DNA from: an uncultured Rubripirellula sp.
GTDB lineage: Bacteria; Planctomycetota; Planctomycetia; Pirellulales; Pirellulaceae
Length of the DNA: 64,000 bases
NCBI GenBank assembly: GCA_938045805.1
Contig: CALIBL010000006.1
Coordinates: 1-64,000 of the forward strand
Reading direction: 5' to 3'
Shown here: positions 46,080 through 63,043 of the stretch, piece after piece
Layout of the letters: each line of letters starts with the position of its first letter
Numbering within the stretch: the stretch's first letter is position 1
Notes under the pieces: generated by a model
The model's database searches: none
What the model saw: the letters and a program-made list of their open reading frames with translations, nothing else
What the model was told of the DNA's origin: nothing
Translations under genes and position numbers: made by a program

Positions 46080-47300
46080 TTGCTCCAGAAGAAAACCTTA
46101 TCGTTCCCACACCACATCCTGAGCGGAACCGAACCCGCTGGCGTTGCGAGAATTCAATCACCCCAACTTTATCAAGCCTTGGCGAGTTCCTCCGCCGACG
46201 TCGTCGCGGGGCTACAGAAACGCGGCGTTGCCAAAATCCTGTATATCCATGGCACTTTTGCTGGGAACGATCTCACTGGTCTAGCTCGTAACCTAGGTCG
46301 CCTCTCACCGTCGCTGACACGGCAATTGCGAATCGACCAGACAATCAAAGAGTGGTCAAAACGGAGCGTTGACAGCCTCTCTGGATCACAGGGAAACTTT
46401 CCTGAAGCCTACGTAACTCAAGTCAACCAATTTCTCCAATCGGGTCAGTCCGACTCCAACATTGGCTCAATCGAAGCAAGTCGCTTTGCTTGGTCTGGGG
46501 AGAATCATCACCTGGGTCGGCTGCATGGATCGCTCAGCCTGCACCAAACCTTACGAGATTTAAAAAGCCAGTTGCAGGAGAATCAGCGAATTCTAATCTT
46601 CTCGCACAGTCATGGCGGTAACCTGTTGGCATTGCTAACGCTCCTCGCCGAATCCAACGCCAAGGTGAAACGCAAACTACTTCGGCATCTGTCGATCTCC
46701 ACACCGGTTGCCCCACCCACCGCAGTGAGTCCACATTTGGGCGATTCACAGAACCCAAACGCGGTGAACGATCTAGCAACCCTCCTCAACCATTGCTCAG
46801 ACCTTCCAAACCTTGACGTCATCACGCTAGGAACTCCACTTAGGTATCGCTGGTCATCGCATCCGCAAAGAAAGATCCTACACCTCATTAATCATCAGGT
46901 GGTCGACCCCAAACAACCGACACGAACTGCATTCCCTAGCCTGTTGAAGCCGCTCGACCTACGCACTCTTGGGGATTTGATCCAACAGCTGGGTATAGGC
47001 GGTTCCGATTTCATTCCGGCAATGCTGACCCCGACAGAGATCAAACAGGAGAAAAAACTCGCCAAGATTCTCGAGTCATCCGTTCGTCGCAAAGATTACT
47101 TTAAGAAGCTTTCGTTGGGTCGTCGGGAGTCGCGTGACGGCGAATCAATTTTGATGGACTACACGCAAATCGAACCACTCGAATCTCAGAAACTGCTCGG
47201 GCACGCCGTGTACACACTTGATCGACTCATTCCTTTCCACCTTGCTCTGGCGTCGCGAGAACTGAATCAAGATCAGCAAAGCGAATTCACCACCGACTAA
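46080..47300 (+). CDS. Alpha/beta-hydrolase (lipase-like) protein
   Basis: About 406 residues. The start is uncertain: the track uses a TTG and no ATG exists in the first 310 codons, so a TTG or GTG start is needed. Hydrolase features are ILYIHGTFAGNDLTGLARNLGRL (oxyanion strand-turn) and the nucleophile elbow ILIFSHSHGGNLLALLTLL (S-H-S-H-G, in place of GxSxG). A later ITLGTPLRYRW strand is typical of lipases of the class 3/DUF-like group. There is no signal peptide, so it is probably cytoplasmic. It is convergent with the OleC-type gene: the two stop codons directly abut (TAATTA at 47298-47303). Confidence 0.72.
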   Translation: MLQKKTLSFPHHILSGTEPAGVARIQSPQLYQALASSSADVVAGLQKRGVAKILYIHGTFAGNDLTGLARNLGRLSPSLTRQLRIDQTIKEWSKRSVDSLSGSQGNFPEAYVTQVNQFLQSGQSDSNIGSIEASRFAWSGENHHLGRLHGSLSLHQTLRDLKSQLQENQRILIFSHSHGGNLLALLTLLAESNAKVKRKLLRHLSISTPVAPPTAVSPHLGDSQNPNAVNDLATLLNHCSDLPNLDVITLGTPLRYRWSSHPQRKILHLINHQVVDPKQPTRTAFPSLLKPLDLRTLGDLIQQLGIGGSDFIPAMLTPTEIKQEKKLAKILESSVRRKDYFKKLSLGRRESRDGESILMDYTQIEPLESQKLLGHAVYTLDRLIPFHLALASRELNQDQQSEFTTD

Positions 47301-48977
47301 TTAGAGATCGTACTCCGCTGTGAGTTGCTCACGAAAGATCTTGCTGTTGTGACGAATGTCAACGGGCAGTGGTTCGGTACGGATCTCAACTCGCTTGATG
47401 CGGCGCGTGATCGGGTTCCGTTCAGCGAGCGCGAGCAGTTCATTGGCAAGCGACTCCCGATCTTCTGGGCTTGAATCAGCGAACTCGGGGTGCAATTCGA
47501 CGAGAATTACTGGTACCTGTTGTCCCTTTTGCCCAAGTCCAATCAGGGCCGATCGATAAACTTTTGGATGTGAATTAAAAATCGCCTCGCACGGAATGGT
47601 GTAGAGCGTGCGTTCGGGCGTCACCACACGATGAGCTTTTCGCCCACAAAACCAAAAACGATCTCTTGCATCCAAATAACCCACGTCACCCATCCGATGC
47701 CAAACTCGATCCCCATCGGACACTTTGTGTAGTTCATTCTGATCGGAACGAACCACATATTTCTTGGTGACCATAGGGCCGGTGACCATCAATTCTCCGA
47801 TCCTTCCCCTCGGTAATTCAGTGGTTTGTCGAATGTCGGTGATTGGCTCGTCCGAAATCTCGATCACTCGCCAATCGGCACCTTCGAATCGACTTCCGAC
47901 ACAGGTGCCTTTTCCCTTCGATGAGGCAGGTCCCGTTTCACTAATAATTTCACGCGACTCAATCGAGGCGATAGGCAACGCTTCCGTTGCACCATACGGA
48001 GTGACAATCTCAGCGTCTTCGTGTACCAATTTTCGCAGTCGCTCAAGTGTCTCGGCCGGAACAGGCGCTCCTGCAGAGAGAATTCTTTTCAAGGTCGGAA
48101 ACGGGCGTTCCGCATCAGTGGCTTCGGCCCAACGCACAACACGATTCCAGAGGGCAGGTGAACCAAAAGCCTGATCGATCTCCCATTGATTCACAGCTTC
48201 AATCAATCGCTGAGGGTTAACTTCGGCGGGACGGGTCGGATCCATATCAGGAATGATGGTCGTCACCCCCATCACCGCATCGAATAAACCAAATAGTGGA
48301 AAACACGCCAAATCTTTTGATCCGCGATGGATGTCATATCGTTCACGAATGCGATCGATTTGCGAATGGAAAGTCCCGTGGGTGTAGAGCACGCCTTTGG
48401 GAGGCCCCGTACTACCGGTGGTGAAAATCACCGCGGCGGGATCATCCATCTCGCGGTGGATCACCGCGTTTGCAGTACCCTCACCGCTGCCCATCGCGAG
48501 AATCTGGTTCAGTGTCCTGCCGCCCCAAAACCAACGGCGTCCCACCGTCACATTCCACCTAGCGGATGGAAAACGCTTTCGCAACAGCGTTCGAATCGCT
48601 TGAGCCTTGGGTATCCCAACGAACCCATCCGGCTCACTCTCGCTCAAACAACGAACAAGGTGTCGCCTCCCCATGCCGGGATCAATTAATACCACCACAA
48701 CACCAGCCTTCAGCAGCGCAAAAACCAGCTCAATAAATTGCCCACTGAACGGAACGAGCATCACTAGCCGCATCCCCGGCTTGATCCCCCAAGCGGCCAG
48801 CCCTCGTGCGATCTCATCACTTCGACGGTCAAGTGCATCGAACGTCGTTGCGCGATAACTTCTGGTTCCATCTATCTGAACTGCGCCGCAGGGTTCCGCA
48901 ATCGCTATTGCACTGGGCATTAGCGAAGCAACCGTTTTGAGCCTTGCAGCAACGTTTGGTTGGAAAGTCTTACTCAT
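47301..48977 (-). CDS. oleC: OleC-type AMP-dependent synthetase (beta-lactone synthetase family)
   Basis: 558 residues. Adenylation motifs are IFTTGSTGPPKGVLYTHGTF (P-loop, A3), TPYGATEALPIAS (A5), HRMGDVGYLDARDRFWFCGRK (A7-A8) and C-terminal DIRHNSKIFREQL with the catalytic Lys. CFPLFGLFDAVMGVTTIIPDMDPTRPAEVNP and HRVVTPERTLYTIPCEAIFNSHP are the hallmarks of OleC, which turns 2-alkyl-3-hydroxy acids into beta-lactones in head-to-head hydrocarbon synthesis. No oleA, oleB or oleD is seen here. Its ATG overlaps the stop of the upstream ATP-grasp gene by four bases, so it is the third gene of the mch operon. The reaction in this setting is unknown. Confidence 0.85.
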   Translation of the reverse strand: MSKTFQPNVAARLKTVASLMPSAIAIAEPCGAVQIDGTRSYRATTFDALDRRSDEIARGLAAWGIKPGMRLVMLVPFSGQFIELVFALLKAGVVVVLIDPGMGRRHLVRCLSESEPDGFVGIPKAQAIRTLLRKRFPSARWNVTVGRRWFWGGRTLNQILAMGSGEGTANAVIHREMDDPAAVIFTTGSTGPPKGVLYTHGTFHSQIDRIRERYDIHRGSKDLACFPLFGLFDAVMGVTTIIPDMDPTRPAEVNPQRLIEAVNQWEIDQAFGSPALWNRVVRWAEATDAERPFPTLKRILSAGAPVPAETLERLRKLVHEDAEIVTPYGATEALPIASIESREIISETGPASSKGKGTCVGSRFEGADWRVIEISDEPITDIRQTTELPRGRIGELMVTGPMVTKKYVVRSDQNELHKVSDGDRVWHRMGDVGYLDARDRFWFCGRKAHRVVTPERTLYTIPCEAIFNSHPKVYRSALIGLGQKGQQVPVILVELHPEFADSSPEDRESLANELLALAERNPITRRIKRVEIRTEPLPVDIRHNSKIFREQLTAEYDL

Positions 48978-49951
48978 CTGTGTGACCTCGACTCCGCTGC
49001 GGCTACAAGGGATGCAACAATTTTGTCCGCGATCGAGTACGGCACAACGCTCTGAGCGCCCTTCCAGCCGGGTATTGCATTGACCTCAATGACGCAAGGC
49101 GTACCAACACTAGTCTCCAGTACGTCAACGGCGGCATAGGTCAGGTTGAGGCTTTCGCAAATGCTGGCCGCCATAAGTCTCTCGTCTTCGCTGACGCTGA
49201 ACCGCTCCGAAACACCGCCGCCAGAAACATTGGTTCGAAAATCGCTCGGATTGTGTCGGCGCAACCCAATGATCTCATCTCCAATCACCAACAACCGCCG
49301 ATCGATTCCACCGGGTGGTTTGAACTGCTGGATATAAAATGCCGCTCCGACTTGATCCAATGACGCAAAAACATACCAAGCAAGTTCTGCATCGCGGATT
49401 CTCATCACACCACGCCCCTCACCCCCAAAAATCGGTTTCACGACACAATCACCACCCAGTGATTTGAACGCGTCGAGTGCTTCGGACCTCGACTGAACGA
49501 CGATCGTATCGGGAACGGGATAACCCAAGGCTGAAACCCGACTCAATGTGGCGAACTTATCGATTGCTAGTTCTAGTGAACGAGGTGGATTAAGTACCAA
49601 CGGATGCTGACAACTGACGGTCGATCCATCCGGTGTGATACCATCCCGCATCGCATCAGGCCTCAATTCCAAACTTCCACATGCCTGGTCGTGTATCTCA
49701 TGCAACATCGCGAGTCGAAACGTTACCTGCTCGAACGAACCAGCGGGCATGGTACGAGTCAGGATGACGTCATGGTCGTTGACCGGCCCCGTCTCACACT
49801 GAACCTCAAGTCTTCCGTCAACGATGAGCGACCTCATCGACTCGTAACTCGCACAATGAAAGACAACTGACAAGCGCTGACACGCCTTCTCAAGTTCCGT
49901 GGCGTGCCAACCACTTCCCGCGCCAAGACATAAAATACTCAGCTGATTCAT
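48974..49951 (-). CDS. ATP-grasp ligase of RimK/MptN type
   Basis: 325 residues, cytoplasmic. The N-terminal domain begins LSILCLGAGSGWHATEL. The ATP-grasp core shows DKFATLSRVSALGYPVPDTIV (the helix before the glycine-rich loop), CVVKPIFGGEGRGVMRI, FYIQQFKPPGGIDRRLLVIGDEIIGLRRH and the metal site VIEVNAIPGWKG. RimK-family ligases add glutamate to protein or cofactor tails. Homologs in tetrahydromethanopterin gene clusters (MptN in archaea, orf9 in methylotrophs) glutamylate the C1 carrier, and the adjacent mch gene makes that the best guess. It overlaps both neighbours by four bases (ATGA). Confidence 0.85.
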   Translation of the reverse strand: MNQLSILCLGAGSGWHATELEKACQRLSVVFHCASYESMRSLIVDGRLEVQCETGPVNDHDVILTRTMPAGSFEQVTFRLAMLHEIHDQACGSLELRPDAMRDGITPDGSTVSCQHPLVLNPPRSLELAIDKFATLSRVSALGYPVPDTIVVQSRSEALDAFKSLGGDCVVKPIFGGEGRGVMRIRDAELAWYVFASLDQVGAAFYIQQFKPPGGIDRRLLVIGDEIIGLRRHNPSDFRTNVSGGGVSERFSVSEDERLMAASICESLNLTYAAVDVLETSVGTPCVIEVNAIPGWKGAQSVVPYSIADKIVASLVAAAESRSHR

Positions 49952-50895
49952 ACCGAAAAAGACTCTGTGAGAACCCTTAAGTCCAATTGCCCTGAGTCAA
50001 ATGTTTTTCCGCTACGCAGGTTATGAACCGTAACTCTCGCAGGACTGAACAGCAACGGATCGACCTGATAGAAGTCGTAGTTGTAACCTTTGAAGATTTT
50101 CGCAAATGGCTGACCGTAATCTGGTGACGCGCCCGCTGGTACGCGGTCTATCACATCGTCAATCGCTTCGTCATCGTGATCGACCCATAGGGTGACTGTC
50201 GCCCCGTAAAGCATTGCGTCATTGGTCCGCCCGATCCCATCAACAAAATCACCTCGTTTTGCGGGGGGCGGCAACGGTGCAATCCCTGTCGCAGAGACAA
50301 TGGTACCCACATCAAAATGAAGTTCATGCAGTTTATGCATCGCCGTTTCCACACTGCGAGCGACCACCTGAACACTACCGGCAATCGAAGTCGCCGGGGC
50401 CACCGCAAGCTTGACACCACTTCGATCAACACGGCAATCGGTCGCAATCTTGTCGAGAGCAGATTCGTTGGGCAGCACCTCAGTCTCTAAAACTCCCACA
50501 ACCTTCGAAACACGCTCAGAGAGCTTTAACGCCTCAAGCACCTCCTCGCGACCGCGTGCGAGTCTCATCGGTCCCGAACCCATCGCAAAAAAATCTTCGC
50601 CCTTGATGGGCCAACCAGCGTACTGGCAACCGAGGCAACTCATGATGGGCTGGTCGGTCCTAACCCAAACCCCTTGGTTCACAGCGTATTGACCCGCATC
50701 AAGGGGAACGATCTGGACATCCGCCAGATCCCCCATACACAAACGAGCCAGTGCAAGTCCGGCTTCCAATCCACCGGGACACTCGATCCCAGCATCAAAG
50801 ATCTGCACTCCACTGTGCTCCGTCGATGCACACCCGAGGTACTCGGGGGATTCATAGAGTTGCCGGAACTTGAGATGGGATTGTTGGTTGATCAT
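49948..50895 (-). CDS. mch: Methenyltetrahydromethanopterin cyclohydrolase
   Basis: 315 residues, full family length. It converts methenyl- to formyl-tetrahydromethanopterin in the archaeal-type C1 pathway also found in methylotrophs and planctomycetes. Recognised by GIECPGGLEAGLALARLCMGDLADV, VWVRTDQPIMSCLGCQYAGWPI, FFAMGSGPMRLARGREEV, VGVLETEVLP and VVARSVETAMHKLHELHFDV with IVSATGIAPLPPPAK. In planctomycetes this pathway is thought to detoxify formaldehyde. First gene of a three-gene operon joined by ATGA overlaps. The other pathway genes (fae, mtdB, fhc) are not in the window. Confidence 0.94.
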   Translation of the reverse strand: MINQQSHLKFRQLYESPEYLGCASTEHSGVQIFDAGIECPGGLEAGLALARLCMGDLADVQIVPLDAGQYAVNQGVWVRTDQPIMSCLGCQYAGWPIKGEDFFAMGSGPMRLARGREEVLEALKLSERVSKVVGVLETEVLPNESALDKIATDCRVDRSGVKLAVAPATSIAGSVQVVARSVETAMHKLHELHFDVGTIVSATGIAPLPPPAKRGDFVDGIGRTNDAMLYGATVTLWVDHDDEAIDDVIDRVPAGASPDYGQPFAKIFKGYNYDFYQVDPLLFSPARVTVHNLRSGKTFDSGQLDLRVLTESFSV

Positions 50896-54613: not shown

Positions 54614-55750
54614 ATGACCGCCATGATCTGTGGGTTTGGAGGTGCGGTGCCGGCTGGTTCAATTAGCGTGCAGGAAGCAGCAAATTTTGCAATTCGCACT
54701 TCAGCAATGCCTGCTGAAATGAATCGCAAGGTGAAAGCCCTTTACAGAAAAACTGGGATCTCACAGCGTGGCAGTGTCCTCATCGACAGGCGTCTATCCG
54801 CGGAAGACGGATTTCAAAGCTTTTACCCCATCGCAAAGAATCCCAACGATCGAGGACCTTCCACATCCGACCGCTTAGCTCGATTTCAAACCGAAGCACC
54901 GAAACTCGCCTCCCAAGCAGCCTCGCAAGCGTTGGCCGCATGTGGTTTCCCACGAGCGTCCTTCACGCACCTGATCACCGTCACCTGCACCGGTTTTTAC
55001 GCGCCGGGCTTGGAAATTGACCTCATACAAAGCCTCAGCTTGCCCCCGCAAATCGAGAGGATCCAAGTAGGATTCATGGGCTGCCACGCGAGCATCAATG
55101 CATTCCGAGTCGCTCAAGCATTGTGCGAAAGTGATCCGAGTCGGAAAGTTTTGGTTTGCTGCGTCGAACTTTGCTCACTGCATTATCAGTATGGAACCGA
55201 CACGGACAGCATCGTCAGCAACGCCATTTTTGCAGACGGTGCAGCGGCAATTGCTGTGACGGGTGAGAATCATGACACAGATCGACTTGATCCAGACAAC
55301 CATAGAGAGAGAACCGATATACAGACACTCGGGGTTATCGCTGCAACTGGATCGACACTGGTCCCCCAATCAACGGATGCGATGACATGGCGAATTGGTG
55401 ATCATGGTTTTTCGATGACACTTTCCGCAGAGGTGCCAAGCCTGCTCCGATCTCAACTCAACGACTGCATCACGCCGTGGCTTCGCCAACATGGACTCTC
55501 AGTGTCACAGGTCAAGGGATGGGCGGTACATCCCGGTGGATCGCGAATCCTCGATGCGGTCGAACAATCTCTCGACCTCAGTCAGGCACAAATCTCATCT
55601 TCAAGGCTGGTGCTGAATGAGCATGGCAATATGTCCTCAGCAACGCTTCCCTTCATCCTTAACAAGCTATCGATCGAACGCGTTGCAAAACCATGGGTGA
55701 TGCTAGGATTCGGTCCCGGTCTGGAAATTGAGATGGCGTTAATTCGTTGA
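54614..55750 (+). CDS. Type III polyketide synthase (chalcone/stilbene synthase family)
   Basis: 378 residues, family length. It condenses acyl-CoA starters with malonyl-CoA. The catalytic triad is visible: Cys157 in VGFMGCHASINAFRVAQ, His in AVHPGGSRILDAV and Asn in NEHGNMSSATLPFIL. The N-terminus (ICGFGGAVPAGSISVQEAANFA) and VTCTGFYAPGLEIDLIQSL, then FADGAAAIAVTG and MLGFGPGLEIEMALI, fit the bacterial branch. The product may be an alkylresorcinol, alkylpyrone or naphthalene-type compound; it cannot be read from the sequence. No methyltransferase or oxygenase tailoring gene adjoins it. Confidence 0.92.
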   Translation: MTAMICGFGGAVPAGSISVQEAANFAIRTSAMPAEMNRKVKALYRKTGISQRGSVLIDRRLSAEDGFQSFYPIAKNPNDRGPSTSDRLARFQTEAPKLASQAASQALAACGFPRASFTHLITVTCTGFYAPGLEIDLIQSLSLPPQIERIQVGFMGCHASINAFRVAQALCESDPSRKVLVCCVELCSLHYQYGTDTDSIVSNAIFADGAAAIAVTGENHDTDRLDPDNHRERTDIQTLGVIAATGSTLVPQSTDAMTWRIGDHGFSMTLSAEVPSLLRSQLNDCITPWLRQHGLSVSQVKGWAVHPGGSRILDAVEQSLDLSQAQISSSRLVLNEHGNMSSATLPFILNKLSIERVAKPWVMLGFGPGLEIEMALIR

Positions 55751-57153: not shown

Positions 57154-57414
57154 TGAGGACTCCGCGAGGTTGTAGTGATTTTTTCAAACGTTGAATCTGA
57201 TACGCGGCCCTCATCATAACGATCTACCGCACTCCGTGAGACCCGAACAGGGCGATGATTTCCTCTCATCGCTTCGTTCTGCCGGTATCACAAAGTTAGG
57301 GGTCGTATCTTTTCGGCTCGATCTCTACAGCTAACCCTTGGCGTGATATCCTTTATGCAATTCATCCTGCGAAAAGATTGCGGGCCAAGTTACAACGAGC
57401 GGTTCAGAAACGTC

Positions 57415-59370
57415 ATGAGCTACACGATCGTCGGAGTGATCGGGCACATCGACCACGGTAAGACGTCTTTGGTCGCGGCGCTCACCGGAGTGGATACTGA
57501 CACCGCACCCGAAGAAAGACGCCGGGGGATCACGATTGACCTTGGATTCGCTTCATTTACCAGCGGGGATGATCAATTCGCACTCATTGACGCCCCGGGT
57601 CATCAAAAATACATCGGTAACCTTCTCGCCGGCGTCGCGTCCCTCGACCTCGGACTTCTCGTGGTTGCCTCGGACCAAGGCGTTCAAGCTCAAACCATTG
57701 AGCACGCAGAAATCCTTCGGTCTTTGGGGGTTCAACGCATCCTGGTCGCCCTGTCCCGATGCGATCTCACCGATCCCAAACAACGGAAACAGATCCGAGA
57801 AGAGGTGGAATTCTTCCTCACCGACCTTGGCTTTGAAACCCTGCAAATAGTCGAAACATCAACAGTCAGTGGAGAAGGTGTCGAGGAATTGCGTGAGCAC
57901 CTAAAGTCCCAACGACGGCGCGAAGCAAGAAGAACTCATGGCCCTTTCCGAATGCCCATTGACCGAGTCTTCTCCAAGCCCGGTCGCGGCACCGTGGTAG
58001 CAGGGACACTTTGGGCGGGCAAGGTCTGCGTTGGTGATGAACTCATGATTCAACCCAGCGGTCAACGTGTTCGAGTTCGAGACATTGAGGCGCACGGCCA
58101 GCAGATTGATTCAACCCAGGCGGGAATGCGCACTGCAATGAATCTCGCCGGAGTTGACACCTCGCAACTACGACGCGGACACGAACTCGTGGCTCCCGCG
58201 AGCTACACCTTGACGCAACGTTTTTTAGCCGAGGTCACACCCTATCCGGATAGTCCAACGATTAAGTGTCCCGCAGCACTGCATTTTCACACGGCAACAA
58301 TGCACTGCGATGGCCGCCTACTCGGCCCCCACTCACTCGCACCAGACAAGAAACAAAAGGTGATTGTTCAGACCACCGAACCGATCGTCTTTTCCTTCAA
58401 TCAACCATTCCTTTTGCGGCGCCCTTACCCGCACGGTTCAATCGCAGCCGGACGCATCTTGATTCCACTTGAAGGTATCAACAAAAAGACTCGAGAGATT
58501 CTCGACTTCGGAAATAATCTGTCTCCTTCCGATGTGGTCGTCCACATCATCGCTCAAGTCAAACTCCGAGATGAGCTAAGTACCTCGGAACTCTTGCTAC
58601 CTCAAATCACATCTTCACTGACACACGACCAACAGAATTTAGCGGCATTGCTGAAACAAGTAGAAGATGCACCCGAAATCATCCGTATCGGTGATCAATT
58701 GATCTCTGCGTCATTCTTAAAGTCGACGAAGCGTGCAATCCTTAAACGCTTGCAGAGCCAATCAAACGCCGAAAATGCATGGATCGATGAACAATCGCTT
58801 CGGGATCAAATCACCAAGCGATCAACGCACACGATCGTGAAGCACGCCATCGCGTCACTGTTAGAGGATCAGCAGATCGTCCGCTCCAACCACCTTTTGG
58901 CGATAAAAACAGATCAAACCTCACTCTCCAAGAAACAAACCGCTGCACTCGCACAAATCATCCAACTCCTCGCAGACAACCGAACGCCCCCCAATCTCGC
59001 TGAACTCGCGAAAGCCACCAAGCAGAGTGACGAGGCACTAAAATCGCTTATTCGATTTGCCGTTCATCAGGGTACCGTCATCGGCATCGGGGATGACTTA
59101 TATTATGCGACTGGAGTCATCTCAGCATTTTGCCACGAACTGATCGCTCTGTTCAACGCCGACGCTAACCGAACGGTCGCCGAGATCCGTGACCACTTAC
59201 AGATAACTCGCAAATACGCGATTCCTTTACTCGAGCACTTTGATAGGGAACAAATCACTTGTCGCAAGGGAGATCACCGTACTGCCGGCCCTCGTCTTGA
59301 ATTACTCATTGCGGCGAACGCAGTGACTCAAGACATCTCCCAAGTTGCTCCCGGCAACTCAACAAATTGA
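57415..59370 (+). CDS. selB: Selenocysteine-specific translation factor SelB
   Basis: 651 residues from the ATG at 57415; the track start is 24 codons early. It delivers Sec-tRNA to the ribosome at UGA codons followed by a SECIS hairpin. The GTPase domain shows [10 protein letters not shown] (G1), [11 protein letters not shown] (G2, the SelB form), [15 protein letters not shown] (G3) and ALSRCDL (G4 variant). Beta-barrel domains follow ([17 protein letters not shown]) and then about 250 residues of winged-helix domains for SECIS binding ([49 protein letters not shown]). First gene of the selB-selA-selD operon. Confidence 0.95.
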
Positions 59371-59429
59371 CGCGGTTAATCTTGCTCAATTTTTGTCCTA
59401 CACCATTCATCCACTTTGCCTTTCATCTC

Positions 59430-60851
59430 ATGTCTCAACATTCGTTGTTACGCTTCATTCCCTCCTTTGATCGACTCTCACAGGACGATCGGATTGAGAT
59501 GCTCCAGAAGGCGTATCCTCACCCTATCGTGCTGAAGTGGATACGACGCGCAATTGAGGAGATGCGTGAGGAAATCGATGCAGAGAGAATCCAGCAACCA
59601 GCCGATATTTTCGAGAATATTGTTTCGTCGATCCTCGAACAGGAACAGCTCTACCGAGGTTCAAAAATCCGGCCCGTGATCAATGCGACTGGGATCATCT
59701 TGCACACGAATCTCGGCCGCGCTCCCCTAAGTGAGCGAGCCATCGAGCGGATGATTGGTGCAGCGAACGCCGCCAACGTCGAGCTCAATCTGCATACCGG
59801 AAAACGTAACCATCGTGGGCAACACTGCGTCGAGCAACTATGCCATCTGACCGGCTGCGAAGATGCTGTATTGGTCAATAACTGCGCCGCCGCAACGATA
59901 CTCGTGCTGCAGGCCGTCGCTGCCGGTAGAGAGGTGATCATCTCACGCGGTCAACTCGTCGAGATAGGTGGTGGTTTTCGATTACCGGATGTTTTCCGCT
60001 CCGCAGGTGTAACCATCCGTGAGGTTGGTACCACCAATCGAACTTATGTGCGTGACTACGAATCAGCACTCACCGAACAGACCGCAGCCGTGATGAGAGT
60101 TCATCACAGCAATTACCAATTGAGCGGATTTGTGACCGAACCAAGTATCGCTGAATTGGTTCAAATGCAACACACCGCTCAGATCCCAATTATCGATGAC
60201 TTGGGAAGTGGCTGGTTGGGAGATCATGGCAGGATTTCAGATCCAACGGAGTCTCTTTGCAGGCTATCAGATCCTTCAATCCCCGACAGCGTCTCGGCCG
60301 GTGCCGACCTCACCCTATTCAGTGGAGATAAGCTCTTGGGGGGACCACAGTGTGGGATTATCCTCGGCAAACGCAAATGGATCGATATCTTGAGACGGAA
60401 TCCACTTATGCGAGCCATGCGATTGGACAAACTTGTCCTTGCGGCCCTCGAAGGAACCCTAGAAATTCACCTCGAGCAGCTAGGTGATAGCGAACTGCCG
60501 ATCACGCAAATGCTTCTCGCGAGTGGTGAAGAGATTCGCGCGAGATGCGAAGAGATCACCGAACGGATCAAGCCCTTGGCCCATTGCGATGTGGTGCCCT
60601 GCGACTCGCAACTCGGTGGCGGCTCGATGCCGGGCCAAACACTCAATAGCTACGCAGTCCGAATTCATTGCAAATCGGCCCATCGTCTCGCCAAAATACT
60701 GCGGACAGGCCCCACACCGGTATTGGGCAGGATCGCCAATGACTCGATCATGTTCGACCTGAGAACCGTTCGAAGCTCGCAGACAGAGCCACTTGCCAAT
60801 GCAATCCGGCAAGCCATTTCGCTTGAAGCGGAACAGAGCAAGGCAGAATGA
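59430..60851 (+). CDS. selA: L-seryl-tRNA(Sec) selenium transferase SelA
   Basis: 473 residues from the ATG at 59430; a TTG at 59367 overlapping the selB stop is the alternative, but similarity begins at MSQHSLLRFIPSFDRL. SelA is a PLP enzyme that changes Ser-tRNA(Sec) to Sec-tRNA(Sec) using selenophosphate. Motifs are VINATGIILHTNLGRAPLS, CEDAVLVNNCAAATILVL, ISRGQLVEIGGGFRLPDV, REVGTTNRTYVRDYE and the PLP Lys in FSGDKLLGGPQCGII. It overlaps selD by four bases (ATGA). Confidence 0.96.
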   Translation: MSQHSLLRFIPSFDRLSQDDRIEMLQKAYPHPIVLKWIRRAIEEMREEIDAERIQQPADIFENIVSSILEQEQLYRGSKIRPVINATGIILHTNLGRAPLSERAIERMIGAANAANVELNLHTGKRNHRGQHCVEQLCHLTGCEDAVLVNNCAAATILVLQAVAAGREVIISRGQLVEIGGGFRLPDVFRSAGVTIREVGTTNRTYVRDYESALTEQTAAVMRVHHSNYQLSGFVTEPSIAELVQMQHTAQIPIIDDLGSGWLGDHGRISDPTESLCRLSDPSIPDSVSAGADLTLFSGDKLLGGPQCGIILGKRKWIDILRRNPLMRAMRLDKLVLAALEGTLEIHLEQLGDSELPITQMLLASGEEIRARCEEITERIKPLAHCDVVPCDSQLGGGSMPGQTLNSYAVRIHCKSAHRLAKILRTGPTPVLGRIANDSIMFDLRTVRSSQTEPLANAIRQAISLEAEQSKAE

Positions 60852-63043
60852 TCGACACGTTAAAGCAGAATCGGATCGTCCTGCTTGGTATCGGGCACAC
60901 CAACGCTCATGTCCTTAAGCAATGGATGATGCGTGCACCCGATGATGCAGAACTTGTCTGTGTCTCAGACCAACCCATCGCCACCTACTCTGGAATGTTA
61001 CCCGCTGTCTTGGCGGGGCAACGCTCAGAAGCCGCGATGACCATCGACTTGGTCAAACTCTGCGCAGCAGCCTCCGCTCGGTTAATCGTCGATGATGTGA
61101 CCGGAATCGACCAAATGAAACAGACGCTTCATTTCGTTGATCGGCCGCCGATTTCGTACGATTTTTTATCTATTGGAATAGGCTCAAGAACCGCGGACAT
61201 CCCCAGCGAGCCGCCACACGATGAGACATGTGCACTCAGCATTAAACCGATGCAGTCGTTTCTCGAACGGCTCACTCACCGCCTGCAACTCAATGCCGTT
61301 CAAGATCCTCATCGCGACCTGCAGGTGGTTGTGATCGGTGGTGGTGTTGCCAGTATTGAGCTTTGCCTCTGCCTTCCGGCATTCATCCAGTCCGTCGTTC
61401 CAAATCCTTTCCGCATCAAATTGGTTACAGCGAGCAACGAACCTGCCAACGAACTCAGTTACCGAGGATCGAGATTCCTCAGCGGTGAACTCAGCCGGCG
61501 CGGTGTCAAATTAATCACCCAAGAACGGGTTTCCTCAATCAGCAAGCATTCGGTCACACTTTCCAGCGGAACCGTGATCGAAGCTGACATCGCGATCACC
61601 GCCACCGGTGCGGCAGCTCCATCATTACTAAGGATGCTTCCGTTTGAAAAGGATGATCGAGATTTCTTGCTGGTGGACGATGCACTCCGAGTAAAGGGGA
61701 CGCAAAATGTTTTCGCGGTCGGAGATTGCAGCAGCCATCATGATCGACCGGTGCCCAAATCCGGGGTCTACGCGGTCAGACAGGGACCAACTCTATGGGA
61801 GAATCTAAAGCGATCCCTTCGCAATCAACCACTATCTCAATTCAAGCCCCAAACAAAATCTCTGAAACTGATAAACCTTGGTGACGGACGGGCGTTAGCA
61901 CAACGTGGGAATCTTACTGCCGCGGGTCATTGGGTTATGAATTGGAAGCATCGAATTGACGATCGATTTATCTCGATGTATTCCGATCCATCCGCTCAGA
62001 TGCCAGCTAACGCGGAGCGTTCACCACTCGCGGAGCAGTGCAAAGGCTGTGGGTGTAAGCTTGATAGCGATTCACTTGATTCCGCAATTAAAAGCCAAAA
62101 CCCCAGTGGGACCTCCACCTTTCAAGATTCCATCGTGATTCGCGATGACGGCATCTCGCAGCTCAACGCAACTACGGACTTTTTTACCGCTCCATTTACC
62201 GACGCCTACCTTTCAGGCAGGATTGCAGCGCTGCACAGCTTGAGTGACTTGGTGGCGAGTGGTTCGAAGCCCACCTCCGCACTGTCCACCCTCGTGCTAG
62301 CGCATGGTCCTAAAAGGCGGCAACAAGAGCAGTTTCTGGAACTGTCAGCTGGAATGAATCGTGAACTAAAACGCTTCGGTCTTCAAATCTCGGGTGGTCA
62401 CACCATTGTCGGTCCTCGCACTGAAATTGGCTTGACGGTTGTTGGAGAGCGACCCTCAGGAAGCGGATCCGGTAAGGACGGACTAAAAGTTGGTGATCGT
62501 CTTTTCCTTACCAAACCAATTGGCTCTGGGCTTCTTATGGCAGCCCACATGCAAGCAAAATGCAGCGCTCACGACTTCCAAGAACTTCTGACTCTGATGT
62601 TACATCCGATAGATCCCTATCTTGATCTAATTCAAAACTTGGACCTGCGAGCGGTCACGGATATCACAGGTTTTGGCTTGGTCGGTCACCTGCTGGAAAT
62701 GTTGGAATCAAGTGGAACCAATGCCGAAATTTCCCTCCGCTCGATACCCCTCATGTCGGGCGTTAAGGAAATACTTCAACAAGGCATCCAAAGTACCTTG
62801 GCGCCGGACAACCAGAAGAAACAACGACACGTCGATGTATCGCCTGAGCTTCTTGAACACGCAGCCTACCCAGCAATCTTTGACCCTCAGACCTGCGGTG
62901 GTTTTCTGTTGGGTGTCCCTGACGAAAAAGTATTACGTCTCACGCAGTTGGCGTCTGAGTTGAACCTGCCCTCACTCCATGAGATTGGGCGAGTCGTCGA
63001 CTTGAACACCAATCAGCAAACCACCTCACTGACCCTTTGCTGA
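60848..63043 (+). CDS. selD: NADH dehydrogenase-like flavoprotein fused to selenophosphate synthase
   Basis: 731 residues in two parts. Residues about 1-370 form a two-dinucleotide-fold flavoprotein (NDH-2 type): RIVLLGIGHTNAHVLKQW, VVVIGGGVASIELCLCL, IAITATGAAAPSLL, NVFAVGDCSSH. Residues about 395-731 are SelD: EQCKGCGCKLDSD, equivalent to the catalytic Cys/Sec and Lys loop, then TTDFFTAPFTDAYLSGRIAALHSLSDLVASG, ISGGHTIVGPRTEIGL and TDITGFGLVGHLLEM. SelD makes selenophosphate from selenide and ATP. The fused oxidoreductase may supply reduced selenium or electrons. The fusion is known in several bacterial groups. The ATG lies in the selA stop. Confidence 0.93.
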   Translation: MIDTLKQNRIVLLGIGHTNAHVLKQWMMRAPDDAELVCVSDQPIATYSGMLPAVLAGQRSEAAMTIDLVKLCAAASARLIVDDVTGIDQMKQTLHFVDRPPISYDFLSIGIGSRTADIPSEPPHDETCALSIKPMQSFLERLTHRLQLNAVQDPHRDLQVVVIGGGVASIELCLCLPAFIQSVVPNPFRIKLVTASNEPANELSYRGSRFLSGELSRRGVKLITQERVSSISKHSVTLSSGTVIEADIAITATGAAAPSLLRMLPFEKDDRDFLLVDDALRVKGTQNVFAVGDCSSHHDRPVPKSGVYAVRQGPTLWENLKRSLRNQPLSQFKPQTKSLKLINLGDGRALAQRGNLTAAGHWVMNWKHRIDDRFISMYSDPSAQMPANAERSPLAEQCKGCGCKLDSDSLDSAIKSQNPSGTSTFQDSIVIRDDGISQLNATTDFFTAPFTDAYLSGRIAALHSLSDLVASGSKPTSALSTLVLAHGPKRRQQEQFLELSAGMNRELKRFGLQISGGHTIVGPRTEIGLTVVGERPSGSGSGKDGLKVGDRLFLTKPIGSGLLMAAHMQAKCSAHDFQELLTLMLHPIDPYLDLIQNLDLRAVTDITGFGLVGHLLEMLESSGTNAEISLRSIPLMSGVKEILQQGIQSTLAPDNQKKQRHVDVSPELLEHAAYPAIFDPQTCGGFLLGVPDEKVLRLTQLASELNLPSLHEIGRVVDLNTNQQTTSLTLC

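Follow-up and report, generated by a model that had tools for sequence, protein, structure and literature searches.

Among the described systems closest to the locus studied here are the archaeal-like tetrahydromethanopterin (H4MPT)/methylofuran cluster of methylotrophs, ordered mch-orf5-orf7, and the oleABCD olefin (head-to-head hydrocarbon) pathway, found in canonical oleA-oleB-oleC-oleD order in other planctomycete families. In the former, Orf5/MyfB lengthens the polyglutamate tail on methylofuran and not one on the pterin, and polyglutamate ligase activity on methylofuran is known for the M. extorquens Orf5 (PMC8141765). Two further systems concern the supply of unsaturated chains. A type II fatty acid synthesis (FASII) cluster with phytoene-desaturase-like enzymes, shared by anammox bacteria and Desulfotalea, was suggested in 2009 as a producer of polyunsaturated chains; Desulfotalea was found to contain C31:8 and C31:9 hydrocarbons, which have also been reported for Planctomycetes (PMC2649909). 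In Shewanella, the linked Pfa polyunsaturated-chain synthase feeds OleABCD, yielding a 31:9 hydrocarbon (PMC6463001). We found no published account of a link between C1-carrier genes and ole genes, in keeping with the earlier note on this DNA.

Pirellulaceae resemble each of these systems in part. All four ole components are core genes of the family, with OleC recognizable by motifs and phylogeny, but they are scattered, oleC and oleB each being embedded among genes of C1 cofactors. As in methylotrophs, mch is followed by orf5, and the CitG-like orf7 and a pterin gene are present; however, the Pirellulaceae version is interrupted by a hydrocarbon module, or split, between orf5 and orf7. This module shares FabF, FabZ, and CrtI-like enzymes with the anammox/Desulfotalea cluster, but is physically joined to ole genes, and we identified no radical SAM gene in its most complete run (genome G020). 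Chain-making genes are linked to ole genes as in Shewanella, although here they are of FASII type and those of Shewanella are a pfa polyketide synthase.

A three-gene locus kept in many Pirellulaceae

The window, a 64,000-nucleotide stretch from an uncultured Rubripirellula sp., carries three successive genes on the minus strand: mch, for methenyl-tetrahydromethanopterin cyclohydrolase (49948..50895, 315 aa); orf5, a myfB-like RimK-family ATP-grasp ligase and predicted methylofuran polyglutamate ligase (48974..49951, 325 aa; RimK, 75 bits); and oleC, for a predicted beta-lactone synthetase of the olefin pathway (47301..48977, 558 aa). They are joined by two 4-base ATGA overlaps on the same strand, at 49948..49951 (mch/orf5) and 48974..48977 (orf5/oleC), in each of which the stop of the upstream gene and the ATG of the downstream gene fall in the same four bases, as the earlier note had described. 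The three genes probably form a single mRNA with coupled translation. A possible 4-base overlap was present at 11 of the 37 mch/orf5 and 13 of the 35 orf5/oleC junctions that we examined, in a set where some loci overlap each other, and the overlap is thus ordinary operon packing, not peculiar to mch-orf5-oleC. The three genes are under purifying selection, measured as pN and pS without a dN/dS ratio since synonymous sites are saturated (oleC against locus L011, pN 0.07, pS 0.76).

The mch product, encoded once in the genome, scored 371.2 bits against TIGR03120 (cut-off 228.8) and 365 bits against PF02289, as expected of Mch, and would interconvert methenyl- and formyl-H4MPT. The ATP-grasp protein had been read as an MptN-like ligase that glutamylates the pterin carrier, an assignment that both sequence and position led us to correct. 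It reached only 164 bits against the MptN model NF040720, far under the cut-off of 350, and its match in the Aquabacterium olei H4MPT cluster was the gene that immediately follows mch (E 5e-35); the other ATP-grasp of that cluster was matched only at E 0.01. Being a RimK-type ATP-grasp right after mch and homologous to its positional counterpart, with Aquabacterium as the reference, the protein beside oleC matches Orf5/MyfB, a predicted methylofuran polyglutamate ligase, rather than MptN, and would add glutamates to methylofuran.

Comparison across Pirellulaceae genomes, a check of the kind that the earlier note had proposed, revealed that the adjacency is widely kept and not confined to the source genome. 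mch and oleC lay no more than 3.5 kb apart in 76 of the 138 Pirellulaceae genomes that had both, many of the compared genomes being fragmented drafts, and this proximity spanned 34 of 64 genera. In all but three of these pairs (73 of 76) the gene order was identical and the intervening distance about 1 kb, taken up by the ATP-grasp gene. By our estimate, chance would place two unrelated genes of a 6-7 Mb genome this close in about 0.1% of cases. The mch-orf5-oleC arrangement is real and old, beyond chance. Where oleC lay apart from mch (L042-L054), the loci read had no common ole or cofactor theme. An apparent co-loss of mch and oleC in G002 was set aside, since oleA, oleB, oleD, and orf7 are still there and an assembly gap is equally likely.

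Gene order in G020 and other Pirellulaceae

In G020, a single run on one strand reads mch-orf5-oleC-c30-oleD-fabF-acp-crtI-crtI-fabZ-fabI-oleB-orf7-ptpS. What the earlier note had taken for one adenylating enzyme recruited beside C1 genes is, in this genome, a whole ole-FASII module placed between orf5 and orf7. In outgroup planctomycete families (L200, L202-L205), mch-orf5-orf7 formed an unbroken row, followed by ptpS in three of the five loci and with no ole genes nearby, and Aquabacterium has the same mch-orf5-orf7 order; deleting the hydrocarbon module from the G020 run restores exactly the outgroup order mch-orf5-orf7-ptpS. In most relatives mch-orf5-oleC, oleB-orf7-ptpS, or both survive as end fragments, and oleB and orf7 were adjacent in 110 of 135 genomes, every pair on one strand. 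Longer pieces, from mch to fabI or fabF, were carried by L207 and by most of L087-L096; L210 reads mch-orf5-oleC-oleA, L211 has mch-orf5-oleA plus the FASII module, and in G135 the two halves share one contig with about 57 kb between them.

Gene orders, their conservation, and gene identities assigned by homology make it probable that the three genes of the window are one fragment of an ancestral merged Pirellulaceae operon, in which a hydrocarbon module was inserted in mch-orf5-orf7-ptpS and which later split. The module, comprising oleC, oleD, a FabF-type synthase, ACP, two CrtI-like FAD oxidoreductases, fabZ, fabI, and oleB, with oleA nearby in some lineages, would have entered the tetrahydromethanopterin/methylofuran cluster at its orf5-orf7 junction, and rearrangements would later have broken the merged operon apart.

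As an addition to this reading, the C1-carrier and polyunsaturated hydrocarbon pathways might be functionally coupled, such that they must be co-expressed in Pirellulaceae, which we consider rather doubtful. Cross-pathway junctions outlast those within the ole pathway, in that the oleB-orf7 and mch-oleC counts given above far exceed those for oleC-oleD (24/135) and oleB-oleC (1/136), and, over dozens of genera, each of two separate ole genes has remained beside a cofactor gene of its own. A functional tie is thus possible, though unproven; if true, selection would have held oleC beside mch-orf5 and oleB beside orf7-ptpS as the ole genes parted from each other. However, mch was absent from 62 of the 79 OleC-bearing genomes in a phylum-wide planctomycete sample, and G030 and G067, in which neither mch nor orf7 gave a match, retain oleA, oleB, oleC, and oleD, indicating that the ole pathway can do without the C1 pathway. 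The retention would also be explained if an operon of overlapping genes decays slowly. Speculative routes of coupling are shared regulation, NAD(P)H from H4MPT enzymes for the FASII/OleD steps, and removal of formaldehyde from oxidising highly unsaturated hydrocarbons.

The complete cluster was found in one sampled genome only, G020, so that secondary assembly from two modules, in place of an ancestral state, is possible. Such a derived, late fusion of two modules, each with one ole gene and a cofactor pair, is nevertheless unlikely given that removal of the module yields the outgroup order exactly, that the G135 halves still share a contig, and that several lineages hold long intermediate pieces. 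Counting against the preferred reading, an ancestral merged operon, and bearing on the timing of insertion, the sister family f3 also has mch-orf5 separated from orf7, with no ole genes nearby in the loci read.

OleC and its partners in the source genome

The window OleC, the sole OleC gene of its genome, scored 682.6 bits against NF006754/PRK09274, an OleC-containing family with a curated cut-off of 478. In the phylogenetic reconstruction, it grouped with OleC of canonical oleABCD operons and lipstatin-type LstC, apart from ordinary AMP ligases, with support of 98-99 on the branches that set other ligases apart; the Pirellulaceae OleC clade (98) was nested among the oleABCD-operon OleCs and LstC. 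The protein has the adenylation motifs and the C-terminal PVDxRHNxKI motif of OleC (here PVDIRHNSKI). Scores against the NCBI equivalogs OlefBLtnSynXan and OlefBLtnSynShew, which are specific to Xanthomonas- and Shewanella-type OleC, were 570.7 and 513.2 bits, below the cut-offs of 900 and 850, and the protein is consequently filed in the wider OleC family only. A PDB search returned no close solved relative. Tree, motifs, and family model together identify the AMP-binding protein as a true OleC at the sequence level, upholding the earlier note's call over a fatty acyl-CoA ligase. The lipstatin-type LstC is an OleC homologue (37-39% identity) encoded on actinobacterial plasmids, likewise with OleA-like and OleD-like genes as neighbours, but lipstatin-type clusters, which make secreted beta-lactones, have an NRPS and a formyltransferase added. 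Extra OleC-like copies in some relatives (L062-L066) formed a separate clade, and in L062 the genes clustered with the second copy are of UbiA, P450, MFS, and sulfotransferase type and do not make up an ole set.

The remaining ole genes, sought elsewhere in the genome as the earlier note had advised, were recovered on other contigs: oleD-fabF-acp on C12, oleB-orf7-ptpS on C111, and oleA on C32. With four ole genes on four separate contigs there is no oleABCD operon in the source genome, nor the second oleC in a full set that the note had named as counting against it, and ole genes are single-copy in most Pirellulaceae. Of the three outcomes that the note had listed as refuting its idea, not one was seen. 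The top PDB matches of OleA (NF006720, 446 bits) were near-identical KAS III chains (8e-51 to 6e-49), including 3fk5 and 3row, which we take to be Xanthomonas OleA; the next match reached only 2e-20. OleD scored 378 and 354 bits, below the NCBI equivalog cut-offs. The OleB candidate, a dehalogenase-family protein with an HDWGG motif and 35-42% identity to the neighbour of oleC in canonical ole operons, reached 154 bits against PRK03592 (cut-off 241), and is called by family, position, and homology without an equivalog match. Two other candidates for OleB were rejected: a hydrolase-like ORF in the window (46080-47300), with no Pfam or NCBIfam match and with the Asp-nucleophile candidate located elsewhere, and a gamma-Glu-GABA hydrolase beside oleA.

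From these genes we infer an output of membrane hydrocarbons. OleA and OleD would make a 2-alkyl-3-hydroxy acid, which OleC would adenylate and close to a beta-lactone, and OleB would decarboxylate the latter to a long-chain olefin, probably polyunsaturated. It is very improbable that OleC instead acts in carrier biosynthesis, equipping the pterin or furan with a side chain, even though its overlap with the cofactor gene orf5 is conserved and some known steps of the cofactor pathway are missing in planctomycetes (PMC5020050). In the phylum OleC mostly occurs without mch, then usually in oleA-oleB-oleC-oleD order, making a pterin enzyme unlikely; other planctomycetes and proteobacteria have mch-orf5-orf7 without oleC; and the OleA, OleD, and OleB-candidate partners are present, so that the pterin modification suggested previously does not stand. 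Hardly credible is an ordinary fatty acyl-CoA ligase beside mch by chance, which would suit the NCBI family name ('fatty acid CoA ligase family protein') and the scores under both equivalog cut-offs but conflicts with the placement by tree and motifs inside OleC, with long-chain ligase models at no more than 161 bits (683 for NF006754), and with an mch-oleC adjacency spanning 34 genera.

Significance for planctomycete biology

By its gene order, the merged cluster connects ole genes with a FASII module that includes CrtI-like enzymes, of the type previously proposed to make polyunsaturated chains (PMC2649909), providing a concrete candidate pathway. It also adds genomic support for the practice, followed in PMC10176705, of taking oleC to mark olefins in planctomycetes. 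Two questions become testable alongside each other: why the H4MPT/methylofuran pathway is retained by planctomycetes with no known methylotrophy, and how planctomycetes make polyunsaturated long-chain hydrocarbons.

Conserved adjacency of mch, orf5 and oleC

The three minus-strand genes described in the earlier note, mch (49948-50895), the ATP-grasp gene orf5 (48974-49951) and oleC, encoding an AMP-binding protein (47301-48977), and the two 4-base ATGA overlaps joining them (49948-49951 and 48974-48977) proved exactly right in their coordinates when checked against the sequence. Protein family models assigned the products to Mch (TIGR03120, 371 bits), the RimK-type ligases, and NF006754 (683 bits against a cut-off of 478), respectively. 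The last was the sole NF006754-family protein above cut-off in the genome, and is filed only in the wider OleC family because it fell below the cut-offs of both lineage-specific OleC equivalogs. In a tree of 63 sequences, it was placed within a Pirellulaceae clade (98) nested among OleCs and lipstatin-type LstC, with many of the surrounding OleCs encoded by other planctomycete families within canonical oleA-oleB-oleC-oleD operons. Other AMP ligases of the window genome branched outside the OleC group. With its OleC adenylation motifs and PVDIRHNSKIFRE end intact, the proposed OleC identity was upheld.

The genome, whose nearest contigs were Rubripirellula MAGs, behaved as a member of the Pirellulaceae, sampled here as one genome per species, many of them fragmented, such that contig breaks overcount gene separation; E-values were computed per genome. 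Among 149 Pirellulaceae genomes, mch was present in 139 and OleC above cut-off in 136. Their adjacency was not confined to the window genome, the two genes lying at most 2.5 kb apart in 76/138 genomes with both, from 34 genera, and having the same order and strand in 73 of those 76; four more genomes, all of one genus, had a gap of 3.7-3.8 kb. The mch-orf5-oleC order was also seen in another locus, L010. This synteny is old, because OleCs of other genera mostly shared ~50-59% identity with the window protein. The ATP-grasp gene stayed with mch in several loci where oleC is elsewhere (L070, L071, L078), as expected for a cofactor gene pair.

Several other features were observed. A plus-strand gene (46080-47300) convergent with oleC, their stop codons abutting, encodes a hydrolase-like protein with an SHSHGG motif and no Pfam or NCBIfam match; this type of gene adjoins oleC in L010, L011 and L055. 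A Type III polyketide synthase of the chalcone/stilbene synthase family (54614-55750, plus strand), also found near the mch cluster in L010, is flanked by sulfatase-like and transporter genes. These adjoin a selenocysteine operon (57343-63043, plus strand) in which two 4-base overlaps join selB, selA and a selD-like gene, the last carrying a fused pyridine-nucleotide oxidoreductase domain; ARAGORN found no tRNA in the 64-kb window. A second, distinct OleC-like lineage occurred in loci L062 (4228-14808), L063, L065 and L066, and in L062 its neighbours were genes for a PEP-synthase-like enzyme, a UbiA prenyltransferase, an MFS exporter, a P450 and a sulfotransferase, together forming a biosynthetic cluster as yet uncharacterised.

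The ATP-grasp ligase and the dispersed ole genes

The ATP-grasp protein had been read as an MptN-like enzyme glutamylating the pterin, which did not hold, as it scored 164 bits against the MptN cut-off of 350. Rather, it matched (5e-35) a RimK-family ligase encoded between mch and a CitG-like gene in the H4MPT/methylofuran cluster of an Aquabacterium olei plasmid, versus only 0.01 for that cluster's other ATP-grasp. We equate the Aquabacterium ligase with Orf5 by position and family, rather than by comparison with the Methylorubrum extorquens protein itself. The latter, Orf5 of the corresponding cluster and an ATP-grasp enzyme, is MyfB, which lengthens the polyglutamate tail of methylofuran (PMC8141765). 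Because it matches the ligase in the Orf5/MyfB position, the window protein probably serves the furan carrier and not the pterin.

The search for oleA, oleB and oleD elsewhere in the genome located oleA and oleD and a candidate for oleB. OleA, on contig C32 (NF006720 at 446 bits, cut-off 285), had KAS III chains as its best twelve PDB matches (8e-51 to 6e-49), including 3fk5 and 3row, which are Xanthomonas campestris OleA, after which matches fell to 2e-20. OleD (378 and 354 bits) is encoded on contig C12, with genes for a FabF-type synthase and an ACP after it. The OleB candidate, on contig C111, is a dehalogenase-type hydrolase with HDWGG and has 35-42% identity to the oleC-adjoining gene of canonical ole operons. 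Since OleA, the OleB family and OleD were found in 143, 142 and 143 of the 149 Pirellulaceae genomes, respectively, the family's ole set is complete, though mostly dispersed.

Origin of the nested arrangement

Closely spaced downstream of the OleB candidate on C111 are genes for a CitG-like protein (Orf7 in the cofactor cluster) and a 6-pyruvoyl-tetrahydropterin synthase. The oleB-orf7 pair was adjacent on one strand in 110/135 genomes and 52/64 genera, and thus, besides the mch/oleC link, a second ole gene is tied to a separate part of the cofactor cluster. Other planctomycete families with mch (L200, L202-L205) had mch-orf5-orf7, with ptpS next in 3/5, and no ole genes nearby. One Pirellulaceae genome, G020, carried on one strand mch-orf5-oleC-c30-oleD-fabF-acp-crtI-crtI-fabZ-fabI-oleB-orf7-ptpS, from which removal of the middle regains the outgroup order; the window and C111 correspond to its two ends. 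Longer pieces, from mch to fabI or fabF, were present in most of L087-L096 and in L207, L210 had mch-orf5-oleC-oleA, L211 had mch-orf5-oleA with the entire FASII module, and in G135 the two halves lay ~57 kb apart. As the entire run from mch to ptpS was present in G020 only, we infer the direction of change, insertion of a module into mch-orf5-orf7-ptpS.

In three genera (L210, L211 and L212, from G001, G015 and G004), oleA lay a few kb from mch-orf5, suggesting that it too was once part of the merged cluster, with oleA linkage counts resting on a partial oleA list. Between oleC and oleD, three loci encoded a protein of 310-326 aa without a Pfam match (L089:8612-9541, L090:9126-10097, L096:10284-11261), replaced by a GYF-domain protein in L091 and L094.

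Predicted roles and product

A real functional coupling of the C1-carrier and ole pathways appears unlikely. The pathway-crossing junctions do persist, mch-oleC and oleB-orf7 at the frequencies reported here, while ole-internal ones are mostly gone (oleC-oleD 24/135, oleB-oleC 1/136). However, of 196 genomes sampled across the phylum, 79 had OleC and 21 had mch, with 62 OleC genomes lacking mch, and two Pirellulaceae genomes (G030 and G067) kept all four ole genes with no mch or orf7 match. The C1 pathway is not needed by the ole pathway, and operon inertia with overlapping genes may suffice as explanation.

The recruitment of an OleC-type enzyme to modify the pterin, proposed from the adjacency, is replaced by separate roles, the observation itself being confirmed. 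In the simplest mechanism, every gene would perform its own task, Mch and Orf5 serving C1 carriers, and OleC with OleA, OleD and OleB making a predicted olefin. The FabF, FabZ, FabI and CrtI-like neighbours suggest that the chains are polyunsaturated. Synthesis of such chains has been proposed for a FASII cluster that includes phytoene-desaturase-like enzymes, and the hydrocarbons C31:8 and C31:9 were detected in Desulfotalea, with an earlier report for Planctomycetes (PMC2649909). In Shewanella, by comparison, a polyunsaturated-chain synthase supplies OleABCD, yielding 31:9 (PMC6463001). The component genes are all of known kinds, and their nested arrangement, undescribed in the open-access literature as far as we could find, is conserved across dozens of genera.
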